This document shows positions 4,940 through 52,152 of a stretch of 64,000 nt of DNA, piece by piece. A program made the translations under genes and the position numbers. Position 1 is the stretch's first letter; each line of letters begins with the position of its first letter. This DNA is from Chrysoporthe austroafricana (lineage: Eukaryota > Ascomycota > Sordariomycetes > Diaporthales > Cryphonectriaceae): positions 186,001 through 250,000 of the forward strand of contig JYIP02000009.1 in the NCBI GenBank assembly GCA_001051155.2. The letters are read 5' to 3'. Below the pieces are notes generated by a model. It searched no databases and was not told where the DNA came from. It saw only the letters and a program-made list of their open reading frames with translations.

Positions 4940-6530
4940 ACCAACTGGACATGCTTACTGGCCCAGCCAGCTTCAGCTACTCATTTCCTTCCTCTTTCTT
5001 CAGAAAATAACACCCACAACTGACTTGACTGAGTTCTCATTCCACACCAGACTTGTTTTTTTAAGTTTTCACTCCTTGCTTCAAAACCAGACACCGCCAT
5101 TACTTCCTTTGACTACCCCGCCTTTCATGGATTTTCAGAAGTGTGATCGGGGTTGGAGCTGGTAATGTGATCCTGGACAAGAATCCAGATATTCCATATG
5201 ATTCAACCATTATCAGCAAAGCTTCGCCTATAGTGAGCTTAGTACTAATGATTCGCTCGTTCGCTTCGAAACGAATCAACTTAAGAGAGATCCCCCAGGA
5301 CTTTAGGCACATGCCTGGTCCGAACCGATGTACCCATTTGATAATTGGTCCGGACTATTCGTTCCGGGGAAGGGTTAGGGTCCTGCGGGGGTCCAGGGGT
5401 TTTGGGGGGGGTCCAGGGGGTCTCCCCCTGGGAATTCGCTATAGACCTTCTGAAATTCGATTTCTATACCAAAATACCAAAATACCAAAACGCTTCTGTA
5501 CTAACTATCGCCATTTTCCTTCTGTACCAATTATCGCTATCCTTTTCTATCGCTATCAATATTTCAAGGAAGCGAATTAGGTATAGTATAGCATAAAATG
5601 CTATTTACGATTAAAAGCTAACGTTCCCAGGTTATCGCGATATCTGCAGCGCCTCGCCGTGGCAGAGGACGGGGTATTCAGCTACTTATCCTTCTATAGC
5701 TTCTCGACCAGAGCCTACGATAGTACCGCCGCTATTCGTCTTGGAAGGCTTCTGTCGACTGGGCTTCTCTTGCTGCTGATCGTTATCGCGGCTGCGCGCA
5801 AGCCTATCGCGAGGCTGTACGACAAGCTTGCCGATCAAGCTAGCTATTATCAAGCCAGCTATCGTCAAGCCAGCTATCGTTAATCTAGCAACCCCCTTAG
5901 CTTACGCTCTTTGCGATACTGGATCCTGCTTTCGGTATTCCCATTCGCCCTGCTTTTTCGGTATTGCAAAACTAGCAAGAGCAGCCCTTGCCTTTTCCCC
6001 TTCCTGAAATATAGCTAGGCATGCCCATCTCGAGCCAAAATATACCTCATACCCCCTTTCCTGCCCTTACTATTCCTAATATTCCTCCTTATTATCGCAG
6101 CTAGTAAGAAGAAAATAAGTATAATCGTTTCTTTCAGCAAGGCATTAATCCTGAGAATACGCTTAATACAGCTGCTGCCAGGTACGAGCTTGCCGTAATT
6201 CAGTAATACTATCGTATTCAAGCCCGCTATAGCGAAACTTACTCTCAAGCCCTTACCGTCGAAAAGCTACGGCTTCAGATACGATAACGCAAAACCCATA
6301 TCCCTCTTTTGCAAGAGGAACTTAACAATAGCAATACTGCTTTCCCTAATAGTAAAAACGATTCGCAATATCCTAACCCTTTTTCAGCCCAAGCTTAACC
6401 TGCTTATTTCGATAACAGATACTAACAATAAATTCTGTTTTCTCTAGCCGGCTTATATTAATAGCCGTAAACGAACTGGGTTTATATATTTCTGCTAAGG
6501 ATTCTGGCTAATATTTTCTTTGGCAAGTTC

Positions 6531-6581
6531 TTCCAGAGCGACAAGCCTTCCAGACCGACAAGCCCTCTAGACCGACAAGCC
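6531..6581 (+). repeat. Three tandem copies of a 17-bp unit
   Basis: Three units of the form TTCCAGACCGACAAGCC lie head to tail with two or three substitutions between copies. The period is the same as in the array at 6684-6768 and in the transposon end at 4344-4432, although the sequences differ. Confidence 0.6.
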
Positions 6582-6683
6582 TTTTATCCGTACGCTCGGC
6601 ACAGAAGAATCCTCTGTCTAGGCACTATCTGCGGATGAATGCTAGAGGTTAAGCCGTTTAGAAAAGGCCTCTACCGGCCAGAC

Positions 6684-6768
6684 CAGCCAGCCCTCCAGCC
6701 CAGCCAGCCCTCCAGCCCAGCCAGCCCTCCAGCCCAGCCAGCCCTCCAGCCCAGCCAGCCCTCCAGCC
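6684..6768 (+). repeat. Minisatellite, five perfect 17-bp units
   Basis: The unit CAGCCAGCCCTCCAGCC is repeated five times without a mismatch. Perfect identity suggests a recent expansion. It is GC-rich inside an AT-rich neighbourhood. Confidence 0.85.
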
Positions 6769-6803
6769 TCCACGCCGGCCAGACCAGAGGTGTATATAGC
6801 GAG

Positions 6804-6912
6804 AGAACCAGAATGGCGCCTGCGAACGCGGGCCGGCGAAAACCGCGGGACGCCGTAGGCCGCGCGTGGTTTCGGCCCGCGTTATTTGGCAGGCCAGGCG
6901 CCATTCGGTTCT
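6804..6912. repeat. 109-bp imperfect palindrome (long hairpin)
   Basis: The outer arms pair AGAACC(A)GAATGGCGCCTG with CAGGCGCCATTCGGTTCT, the middle arms AACGCGGGCCG with CGGCCCGCGTT, and the inner arms GGCGAAAACCGCG with the CGCG-GGTTTCGGC side, around a short loop near 6857. A second perfect 16-bp palindrome (TTTAGCGAGCGCTAAA) follows at 6927-6942. The arrangement resembles a fold-back or MITE-like element. It lies about 120 bases before the start codon of the microexon gene. Confidence 0.75.
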
Positions 6913-7035
6913 TGAGCTTGAGCTCGTTTAGCGAGCGCTAAAAGCGATATAGCCGTCACGGGACCGTTAGACTCGGGAGCTTCGAAACGGATCCCGACCG
7001 TTGGAACGCAACCGAGTAGGAATATCACCCGAGAA

Positions 7036-9032
7036 ATGTCAGATATACCCAAAGAATTCTTCCCCTTCTTCTCTAAACCATTTGAGCAGCCTGTATGTAT
7101 CCTGCAATACCCTCACACACCTTGCCTCCTACCTCCCTTTACAAAAACATTAGCTAATATTACATTGTTGTTCAAGTGACTATAATCTCTCTTGTGTAAG
7201 TTTGGCATATCTAGTAAAAGCTAAGTACTATGATCGCTAATGATGTTGTTTTCCTGGTATATTAGGACTACCAAACAATTCACAATGTGAGTAGCCTTAT
7301 CTTAAATACTAGCATTTGGTACAAGTAAAATGCTTGAGCCCATTTGCTAACTTGATTACAGCACACAATAAGAAGCCAGTGGGTTATAATCACATCTTGA
7401 AAAACGGCCTATATTGCTAATGTTTTCTACCCCTTGAAGTGGCTCCCACTCATCCTGGTAAGCCTTCAAGTTTCCACTTCCTACACTGTCAGGTATAAAG
7501 TGACTGACTATAGCACAGAGAAGAAGAACGGTTCGTCGACTTCACTCATTTCGCACATTATTGGCTTTGATTGACATCAGCTGGCATATTATTTAGCTGG
7601 GTCAGGTAAGCCAACCTCCTTTGACAACAATAGATCTAGGTAGACTGACTGCATTATAGCGAATCCCAAGACCAATAGTGAGTTTGCAAGGAACCTTTCA
7701 TTAACAACACCAAGGCTGATCTTCATTTTTTTCCCAGGGCAAAACCGGGTCAACAAGCGTAAGCATTTCTGAGAACTAACCCTCATGTGAATATAGCTGA
7801 CTTGTTTATAGCCAAAGTCTCCAAAGTCAGGAATCATGGGTTGTCAACGGAAGGAAGATATGCTGACTGTGATAAGTGTGAGCATTGTGGCCTGGCTGGC
7901 TATAAACCAGCCAACTGCTGGAGCCGCCCGGAGGTATATAGTTCCCCAGCCCTCTTTTTCTTTTCCTAGCTTGTTTGCTCAGGCTGCTGATCGCTGCAAT
8001 AGCATGATGGAAGCGTGAGTCAACCCAGGGGTTTGATTGCCCTGAATCTATCCCATCTTCTTTTTTTTCAGCCCAAGATATTGCTGACTTCTTGCATCAC
8101 CATTCAGAGCCTAGTTGCCGAGGTAAGTCCTCTGATGTACTTATCTCAGCAAAGCACTCTGCTAACCTGAAGTTTCATATAGAATTCTCCCGCGGTAAGT
8201 ATTCCGTTGCATTCCATTAGGAATCATGAAGGCTTTGCTCATAATCATGTTTTAGTTTTGGCGAAACAAATGGGACGTCAGTGTTAAGTCTCATTTGTTA
8301 ATTTGTACCTTATGATAAAAACATTAACACATGAAGATCAGAACTACATGCAAGCCGCTCAGGTATGTTGATATTCTGTCTCTTTTCACAATCATATGTT
8401 TATTGAACTATGAAGATTAACATCTCATTTTAATTATTAGCGAAAGGAGCAAGAGCTACAAGTAAGATATACAGGCATAAAGGTTCCTTGGTATGAAATA
8501 GGCTAACTGTCCACCAGGCTCTTCGAGCAGAGCACGAGGTTAGCCTTGAGCCTTGGCTGACCGTCATTATATATTAACATCGGGAGAATCCAGCGCTTAT
8601 GCAAGGAAGCTGCAGTAAATTGAAATCTCCATATCTCTCTGCTAGAGAAGTCTACCCAAACTAATAGTTACCAAATAAAGGAGGCGGAGAAGAAGGCCCA
8701 AGTATGTTGCCCATTAAGTTATTGGTATGGTATTGAATGCTGATCCAGAGAAATACAGGAGGCCGAGAAGAACAACATTGTAATGTCATGCCATCTTTAT
8801 AGGATCTCGATAGCCACTAACTTTTGTAAAATTCAAGTCTAACAAGTCCGCAACCTCGGTAGGTTAAATTACAACAACAAAAGGTCTTTAGTCTAAACAA
8901 GTTCTAACACTAGCTCTAGGCCCTGTACGAGAAGTTTGTAAGTGTCTCTTATAAGCTGGTATGATATCATTGGTATTGTGCTAATGTATTACCTGCATTT
9001 AGTTGGCTCAGGATGAGGAGAACAAAGAGTAG
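7036..9032 (+). CDS. Microexon gene: zinc-knuckle protein with heptad-repeat tail, about 22 exons
   Basis: The family is not recognised. Predicted exons: 7036-7092, 7266-7286, 7362-7382, 7440-7457, 7519-7530, 7581-7605, 7660-7677, 7738-7758, 7812-7933, 7983-8014, 8072-8122, 8183-8194, 8256-8276, 8342-8362, 8441-8461, 8518-8538, 8594-8614, 8681-8701, 8759-8779, 8838-8858, 8920-8937, 9003-9032. About 19 of 21 introns carry a CTAAC/CTGAC-like branch site. From MSDIPKEFFPFF the frame stays open through exon 9, which encodes a CX2CX4YX4C knuckle (CEHCGLAGYKPANC; usual His is Tyr). The tail reads FWRNKWD, NYMQAAQ, RKEQELQ, ALRAEHE, RLCKEAA, EAEKKAQ, EAEKNNI, one heptad per exon, then a stop at 9030-9032. 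The exon 10 to 11 junction is out of frame by one base with GT donors; a GC donor after 8012 would restore it and give about 207 aa. The knuckle suggests nucleic-acid binding, as in gag-like proteins; this is inference. Confidence 0.6.
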
Positions 9033-9280
9033 CAAGAGAACGAGTGAGGCCTTTCTGGACTCTCAGCCTCCATCGCGCGGCGTTATCAGGGTCCATCGCT
9101 CTCTTCGGCCCGAGTACTTTCTCGTCGAACTTACAGACGAGATCACGCTAATATGAAAGTACCGTAATAGCAGAGTTTACAGTGCGCTTCGTCTCGTATT
9201 CTTCCGGGCCGAGCGTGACCCGGCTTTGTTTGGTGCGCGTCACGTAGACAAATATAAATTTTTGACAGTCGTACGGCGCG

Positions 9281-9984: not shown

Positions 9985-10086
9985 TGACAAGAGTGAGATT
10001 CGAACTCACGCCTCTTTCGAGACCACGAAGAAGTATTCAGGTTGAGGACCTGAACGTGGCGCCTTGGACCGCTCGGCCATCTTGCC
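9985..10086 (-). tRNA. tRNA-Leu (anticodon CAG) with a 20-nt intron
   Basis: On the minus strand the 5' end GGCAAGA pairs with TCTTGTC at the 3' end (one G-T pair), followed by discriminator A. Box A (TGGCCGAGCGG) and box B (GAGTTCGAATC) are both present. The long variable arm is the class II feature expected for Leu. The anticodon arm is CCACG-TTCAGGT-CGTGG once an intron at 10029-10048 is removed. The intron holds CCTGAA, which can pair with TTCAGG of the anticodon loop, the usual arrangement in eukaryotic pre-tRNAs. Confidence 0.92.
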
Positions 10087-52063: not shown

Positions 52064-52152
52064 GGTTGCGTAGTGTAATGGTTATCACTTTGGATTCTGA
52101 TGGCATTATCTCGTCTCTTCCAGCAATCTGAGTTCGATTCTCAGCGCGACCT
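52064..52152 (+). tRNA. tRNA-Gln (anticodon CTG) with a 17-nt intron
   Basis: The acceptor stem pairs GGTTGCG with CGCGACC (one T-G pair), followed by discriminator T. Box A (TAGTGTAATGG) and box B (GAGTTCGATTC) are present. Removing 52101-52117 restores the anticodon arm TTGGA-TTCTGAT-TCCAG with anticodon CTG. A T run follows the gene (TTCCTTTTGCCCTTTTTG), fitting RNA polymerase III termination. Confidence 0.92.

Follow-up and report, generated by a model that had tools for sequence, protein, structure and literature searches.

Predicted intron-packed genes of Chrysoporthe austroafricana in which many exons match single coiled-coil heptads

The truffle Tuber melanosporum carries a family of genes, nank (NACHT-ANK), with tens of codon-sized (3-bp) microexons that are alternatively spliced (Iotti et al. 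2012, as cited in PMC3689799, PMC4986451 and PMC10197012). Schistosome micro-exon genes (MEGs) have a coding region made mostly of very small symmetrical exons and yield protein variants (DeMarco et al. 2010, as cited in PMC4350168); they are described as apparently confined to platyhelminths (PMC4350168). Xlr2 of Trichoderma virens has one microexon with switch-like use, and according to the authors of that study functional microexons were previously undescribed in filamentous fungi (PMC11121469, 2024), a statement that is too wide because of the truffle nank microexons. Scattered exons of 2-10 residues occur in Phanerochaete P450 genes (PMC1184071). These accounts draw on excerpts of the sources named. 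In animals, the 54-bp exons of fibrillar collagen genes are matched to the Gly-X-Y triple helix, and these genes have grown by exon-unit duplication.

Here we describe a gene and two diverged paralogues, on C12 and C21, that probably form a real, translated family with phase-symmetric microexons, encoding a knuckle and a coil of heptad-sized exons, with unit duplication in the C12 member. Like nank, this is an ascomycete gene family rich in microexons. The nank microexons, as excerpted, are 3 bp long and belong to the sensor region of a receptor of NLR-like type, whereas the window gene has 9-30-nt exons nearly throughout, a comparison of size in which 9 nt is the smallest exon modelled and the lower limits of our scans exclude 3-nt exons. 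The family further differs from nank in its many one-heptad exons and its combination of knuckle and coiled coil, with no NACHT or ankyrin match by Pfam. With the MEGs, on the excerpted description, it shares a predicted majority of tiny symmetrical exons, a layout that permits in-frame skipping; unlike the MEGs it is fungal, encodes a knuckle and a coiled coil, and has exons quantised as heptads. In the excerpts on Xlr2 and the Phanerochaete P450 genes, one or few microexons sit in otherwise ordinary genes, whereas the window gene consists nearly entirely of them. Collagen genes resemble the family in having exon length quantised to a repeat of the protein fold and in growth by unit duplication, and differ in the repeat, the exon length and the organism, since here we deal with a coiled-coil heptad, 21-nt exons and a fungus.

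Given the truffle nank genes and the other fungal precedents, as far as the excerpts describe them, a microexon-rich gene is not new to fungi. Heptad-sized exons are new as far as our searches show, within the literature searched: no report of such exons in fungi was found among the literature matches listed, in which subscription journals are thinly covered. The initial annotation had suggested a new class of intron-packed gene; an intron-packed family does emerge, from the paralogues and from selection between C12 and C21, but the microexon-rich nank genes, in their excerpted description, precede it. The novelty lies in exons whose length follows a structural repeat, together with a unit duplication that can still be read in the C12 sequence. 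This opens a direct test of the view that exons are protein modules, and it raises the question of how runs of exons 9-21 nt long are spliced in a fungus.

The genome analysed comprises 48.15 Mb in 22 contigs, and the window, the whole stretch of 64,000 nt under study, is C22 positions 186001-250000. A scan for chains of GT...branch...AG introns (45-90 nt, spaced by 9-130 nt), with scoring weights that follow an ascomycete consensus and are not trained, gives the stretch 7036-9035 a score of 74.5 with 17 introns. In dinucleotide-preserving shuffles of this stretch (n=200) the score averages 3.8 (sd 2.8) and reaches 17.7 at most. Outside the gene, the highest score among 126 stretches of 2 kb in the window, both strands included, is 12.0; a further 218 kb from elsewhere in the genome (392 stretches) peak at 13.0, at a fragment copy of the window gene. 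The microexon ladder at 7036-9032 is real, not chance, as the initial annotation had judged. A frame-aware chain of 24 exons (score 157.8) starts with the ATG at 7036, ends with the stop at 9032 and meets no in-frame stop in between. The features of the window gene are these:

7036..7092, + strand: candidate first exon (MSDIPKEFFPFFSKPFEQP), donor GTATGT; start codon and next junction uncertain
7154..7195, + strand: stretch probably with one more exon; 42 nt in the frame-aware chain
7178-7194, + strand: alternative 17-nt exon within 7154..7195, resembling a 17-nt exon of the C12 chain
7266..7286, + strand: 21-nt exon LPNNSQ, phase 1
7362..7382, + strand: 21-nt exon HNKKPV, phase 1; HNKK also in C12; 7362-7378 in the frame-aware chain
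7440..7457, + strand: 18-nt exon APTHP
7519..7530, + strand: 12-nt exon KKN; 7514-7530 in the frame-aware chain
7597..7605, + strand: 9-nt exon GS
7660..7677, + strand: 18-nt exon NPKTN; same-phase counterpart in C12, QPRRN
7738..7758, + strand: 21-nt exon QNRVNK; C12 counterpart NYHVTK
7812..7933, + strand: 122-nt exon with zinc-knuckle-like CEHCGLAGYKPANCW, phase 1 to 0; intron 7826-7876 in the frame-aware chain
8003..8014, + strand: 12-nt exon HDGS
8108..8122, + strand: 15-nt exon SLVAE; 15 nt at the equivalent place in C21, possible in C12
8183..8194, + strand: 12-nt exon NSPA; 12 nt at the equivalent place in C12 and C21
8256..8276, + strand: 21-nt exon FWRNKWD
8342..8362, + strand: 21-nt heptad exon NYMQAAQ; C12, YYMNKRD
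8441..8461, + strand: 21-nt heptad exon RKEQELQ
8518..8538, + strand: 21-nt heptad exon ALRAEHE
8594..8614, + strand: 21-nt heptad exon RLCKEAA
8681..8701, + strand: 21-nt heptad exon EAEKKAQ
8759..8779, + strand: 21-nt heptad exon EAEKNNI
8838..8858, + strand: 21-nt heptad exon SNKSATS
8920..8937, + strand: 18-nt exon ALYEKF; C12 GLYEEK and C21 EEFEEM, each 18 nt
9003..9032, + strand: 30-nt last exon LAQDEENKE and stop; 30 nt in C12, 33 nt in C21

From 7266 onward the preferred model has 21 exons and 20 introns of 53-93 nt. Exon lengths run 21, 21, 18, 12, 9, 18, 21, 122, 12, 15, 12, eight times 21, 18 and 30 nt; 20/21 are divisible by three, the exception being the 122-nt exon, 11 of the 21 are exactly 21 nt long, and 20 measure 30 nt or less, the smallest having 9 nt. 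Introns are in phase 1 as far as the 122-nt exon and in phase 0 beyond it. A branch-like site ([CT]T[AG]A[CT], 8-34 nt before the intron end) is found in 19/20 introns, the one without such a site in range being 8195-8255. The initial annotation had described about 22 tiny exons in 2 kb with a branch site in nearly every intron, a 122-nt exon and a terminal exon 9003-9032 with a stop, and all of these recur here; it gave no inner exon borders, and the agreement is limited to sizes, number, and the 122-nt and last exons. Its ATG exon, 7036-7092, stands as a candidate from which the stop-free chain starts, but no consistent-frame join links it to the downstream exons, and the first exons of the window gene and C12 are not reconcilable. 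C12 likewise has, by eye, an ATG stretch followed by GTATGT, the automatic C12 chain taking a different donor. The stretch 7093-7265, upstream of the 21-exon model, probably contains another exon rather than being one single intron.

The model is part automatic and part judgement, several borders having been set by eye and by comparison of the three genes. The second-best frame-aware chain is identical to it from 8003 on and deviates upstream (7362-7378, 7514-7530 and the intron at 7826-7876). For the last exon, the alternative 9012-9032 scores slightly above 9003-9032. Our first models were dropped for a frame clash at 7983-8122, and the readings AADRCNSMMEA, QDIADFLHHHSEPSCREFSRVLAKQMGR and VLAKQMGR (from 8256) gave way to 8003-8014, 8108-8122 and 8256-8276, chosen because the branch site, the phase and the C12 and C21 exons fit. 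Phase 0 upstream of the knuckle, which fits synonymous changes in one exon of the fragment copy L007 (two changes in exon 7597-7605, synonymous in frame 0 and not in the chosen frame), was rejected because the counterpart exons of C12 are in phase 1.

The predicted product from 7266 has 164 residues and consists of a basic Asn/Lys/Pro-rich stretch, the knuckle-like CEHCGLAGYKPANCW and a charged, coiled-coil-like tail, in that order. CX2CX4HX4C is the zf-CCHC zinc-knuckle pattern. It is retained in the C12 and C21 knuckles, whereas the window motif reads CX2CX4YX4C, which has zinc-knuckle spacing with Tyr in place of His and may be unable to bind zinc. C12 and C21 resemble zf-CCHC proteins in this motif; differences are the window Tyr, the tail, the gene layout and the Pfam result, in which the modelled pieces have no match above cut-off, with no zf-CCHC, gag, NACHT or ankyrin. 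The tail, cut at the exon borders, yields the heptads NYMQAAQ RKEQELQ ALRAEHE RLCKEAA EAEKKAQ EAEKNNI SNKSATS, in which positions 2 and 6 are mostly hydrophobic (3-4 spacing). These positions are the best register in each of the three genes. In a register test on 25 heptads, which omitted FWRNKWD and GRTKTVR, 0/20000 permutations place hydrophobic residues at positions 2 and 6 as well, and with these two restored (27 heptads) 1/20000; within single genes the signal is weak (window 158/5000, C21 189/5000 permutations). These data suggest that the tail is a coiled coil with one 21-nt exon per heptad in constant register; that many exons are whole heptads is a point that the initial annotation missed. 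The knuckle likely binds RNA or single-stranded DNA, and the coil likely mediates oligomerisation.

A translated search with the window knuckle region gave a second match on C21 (E 0.003), and the C21 knuckle, CPHCGKMGHQPSRCW, used as query led to a third member on C12, CPYCGGRGHRPGRCW (70%, E 3.6e-6). A knuckle match on C18 is without an intron ladder and was not counted as a member. The C21 locus has its own ladder with a score of 44.9, or 34.9 in the shuffle comparison, where the shuffle maximum is 19.3, and C12 scores 32.6 against a shuffle maximum of 14.6 (100 shuffles each). Between knuckle and heptads all three models place a 15-nt and then a 12-nt exon, a pair that in the window gene is preceded by an extra 12-nt exon and followed by an extra 21-nt exon. 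Runs of 21-nt or 42-nt exons are common to the three models, with single 18- or 27-nt exons in C12 and C21; the last exon but one is always 18 nt long, and the last measures 30 (window), 30 (C12) and 33 nt (C21). The window gene and C12 both have an 18-nt and then a 21-nt phase-1 exon ahead of the knuckle (NPKTN, QNRVNK; QPRRN, NYHVTK), and both pass from phase 1 before to phase 0 after the knuckle region, C12 having an intron at the place where the window 122-nt exon continues. This exon plan, largely common, supports the view that the two diverged paralogues and the window gene belong to one predicted family. Three is a lower bound for its size, because the ladder survey covered 218 kb and the window and because protein searches reach only similar knuckles.

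The paralogues have irregularities of their own. Multiples of three make up 19/20 modelled C12 exons, the smallest exon has 12 nt in both C12 and C21, and 3/19 introns of C12 are without a branch-like site in range. C21 shows two non-GT donors, GCATGT and AGTCAC, and may be decaying. Automatic chains of C12 and C21 agree with the models on the 12-nt exon, on the majority of the heptads and on the final two exons; the C12 chain deviates in having a 30-nt exon instead of 15 and differs at NLIDSAE and GINAKIT, and the C21 chain puts the knuckle in a different frame from the model. The C21 model has 13 exons and is without a firm version upstream of the knuckle. At L011, on C21, a CCT/CCA-type microsatellite lies at the place of the C12 exon preceding the knuckle.

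C12 and C21 were compared over ten equal-length exon pairs (264 nt), matched by eye and taking in 10/13 modelled C21 exons. In the predicted frame dN is 0.36 and dS 1.24, whereas frames shifted by one or two bases give dN 0.54 and dS 0.33 and 0.24. A Fisher test on the rounded counts of the first version (267 nt), which used one 18-nt pair whose final exon is 15 nt, as in the 264-nt version, gave 7.5e-6. The exons omitted are EEEKISI, KHEEEKDER and the last exon of C21, which have no equal-length partner, and on the C12 side GIKNKMA, NMKEMMV, AEGNMM, EKKIEEEKEDNGGG, the last exon and five pre-knuckle exons. Given that dN is below dS only in the predicted frame, the comparison indicates that translation of the spliced reading was maintained over much of the period since C12 and C21 split; the window gene is not part of this comparison. 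Raw exon identity between the two is 174/267, not above that of their introns, which in gapped alignment share 44/54, 76/104, 40/54, 43/54, 47/65 and 54/72 bases (72-81%).

Within C12 the units GINAKIT and GIKNKMA, exon and intron together, are identical at 88/116 aligned bases (z 12.3), the best of 21 C12 unit pairs; weaker scores are found for NLI-GIK (5.1), GIK-NMK (4.3) and GIN-NMK (4.0). Judging from these alignments, neighbouring exon-intron units in C12 are tandem copies, and the coiled-coil tail would thus have grown heptad by heptad. The tail units of the window gene are no longer alike: their intron pairs score like shuffled ones, and only one pair of 21-nt exons in the tail, EAEKKAQ and EAEKNNI, has over half of its bases in common (14/21). 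Introner-type intron gain was rejected, as the introns are no more similar than shuffled ones: among 22 window introns compared in all pairs, scores average 5.10 and peak at 11.0, against an average of 4.64 and a peak of 13.0 after shuffling.

We propose that exons joined across about 20 short introns encode a basic region at the N terminus, followed by a knuckle of CCHC type and a coiled coil, the coiled-coil exons being mostly one heptad (21 nt) or two (42 nt). Copying one exon-intron unit adds one heptad with the frame intact, and the C12 array has lengthened through tandem duplication of such units. Under intron definition exons can in principle be very small, and the short introns seen here would suit this mode of splicing. 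From the DNA we infer that the genes are transcribed and spliced; their product would bind nucleic acid through the knuckle and oligomerise through the coil. Because most coiled-coil exons are whole heptads, their duplication, loss or skipping would alter the coil by whole heptads with frame and register kept. Nearly all exons are symmetric and many are whole heptads, so that skipping would be harmless, and isoforms produced in this way could be tuned in coil length. More tentatively, and with considerable doubt, these may be fungal micro-exon genes in which each exon is a structural unit, copying lengthens the coil, and skipping sets its length and choice of partner. On this exon-as-heptad reading the family would have been overlooked so far because gene finders cannot model such genes.

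Among 5.8 billion predicted proteins, the window query returned 389 candidates with none at E 1 or less, and the C12 query 1147 with none at E 10 or less; the former carried the superseded readings AADRCNSMMEA, QDIADFLHHHSEPSCREFSRVLAKQMGR and VLAKQMGR, and the latter had IQQAVLV where the final C12 model has QAVLV. Such an outcome would be expected if gene finders overlook genes of this kind, or if the family occurs in few species, and it serves as a warning that protein databases can miss them.

DNA searches of the genome find the full window gene once, and fragments of it on C20, at L006, L007 and L008 (near 3.07, 3.70 and 3.80 Mb). Compared with the window, L006 has 1 substitution in 84 exon sites and 0 indels, and 23 substitutions in 269 intron sites with 5 indels (Fisher on exon versus intron substitutions, 0.010). 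L007 and L008, which cover part of 7550-7757, have no exon-intron contrast (Fisher 0.41 for L007; 0.52 and 0.73 for L008). Transitions from G/C in the window to A/T in the copy account for 11/15 changes in L007, 10/14 and 6/12 in the L008 pieces, and 12/24 in L006. Given these shares, repeat-induced point mutation (RIP) likely hit L007 and part of L008. Exon 7660-7677 is followed by the donor GTGAGT in the window, GTAAGT in L007 and GTACGT in L008, altered yet canonical. In L007 and L008, short gene-like pieces recur in altered order and form mosaics: 4000-6300 of L008 holds 5 direct-repeat families of 46-90 nt, and 2000-4200 of L007 holds 7 of 49-79 nt. Pieces of the window gene, introns included, lie near or among these mosaic repeats, and another piece lies in L006.

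Is the window gene itself still functional? A real family whose window copy (C22) is decaying, with only C12 and perhaps C21 still at work, is in our judgement rather unlikely. Decay would fit the Tyr in place of the knuckle His where C12 and C21 keep CX2CX4HX4C, the first exons that cannot be reconciled in frame, and the position in an AT-richer stretch beside a dispersed repeat, with a TpA/ApT ratio of 0.98 against a mean of 0.70 for window 16001-64000; the selection test, moreover, covers C12 and C21 only. Against it, the 21-exon model is stop-free with 20/21 exons symmetric, a stop-free ATG-to-stop chain also exists, and L006 and window exons agree at 83/84 sites. RIP-mutated DNA usually has a positive composite RIP index, whereas that of the gene is -0.36 (mean of window 16001-64000, -0.54). 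Opinion can be evenly divided on whether these real genes are spliced constitutively, the heptad exons being a by-product of coil growth and the choice of exons without function. Symmetric whole-heptad exons make skipping harmless, hence possible, and the truffle nank genes, as excerpted, use alternative microexons; yet unit duplication by itself can account for equal exon lengths and phases, and exon skipping is uncommon in fungi.

Gag proteins often unite a basic stretch, a coiled coil and a CCHC knuckle, and the genes might therefore descend from a domesticated retrotransposon gag that acquired its introns later. We regard such an origin as improbable, given that Pfam finds no gag domain, that the knuckle precedes the coiled coil, and that two or more units of C12 duplicated as exon plus intron instead of acquiring introns singly. 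A chance pattern in AT-rich intergenic DNA could draw on the untrained weights of the intron model, but the shuffle and genome controls, the paralogues and the in-frame selection make it extremely improbable, and they argue instead for the real, translated microexon family preferred here.

The neighbouring gene in the window, at about 10.5-12.3 kb, is an SPT10-like acetyltransferase, for which the top two of the 120 best matches listed are from Cryphonectria parasitica (70% identity) and Coniella lustricola (65%). The dispersed repeat beside the AT-richer stretch in which the window gene sits occupies window 5212-6924. A second copy, whose main pieces show 81-97% identity, is found at L007 6439-7422; it lies some 2 kb away from the gene fragment there and is arranged differently than in the window. 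The tandem-repeat search called none across the window gene itself; upstream of it, at window 6678-6768, lies a 17-bp tandem repeat (CCAGCCCAGCCAGCCCT, 5.4 copies). For tRNAs, Rfam gives two matches, at window 9985-10086 (-), 102 nt, and 52064-52152 (+), 89 nt; none was reported by ARAGORN under the bacterial code.
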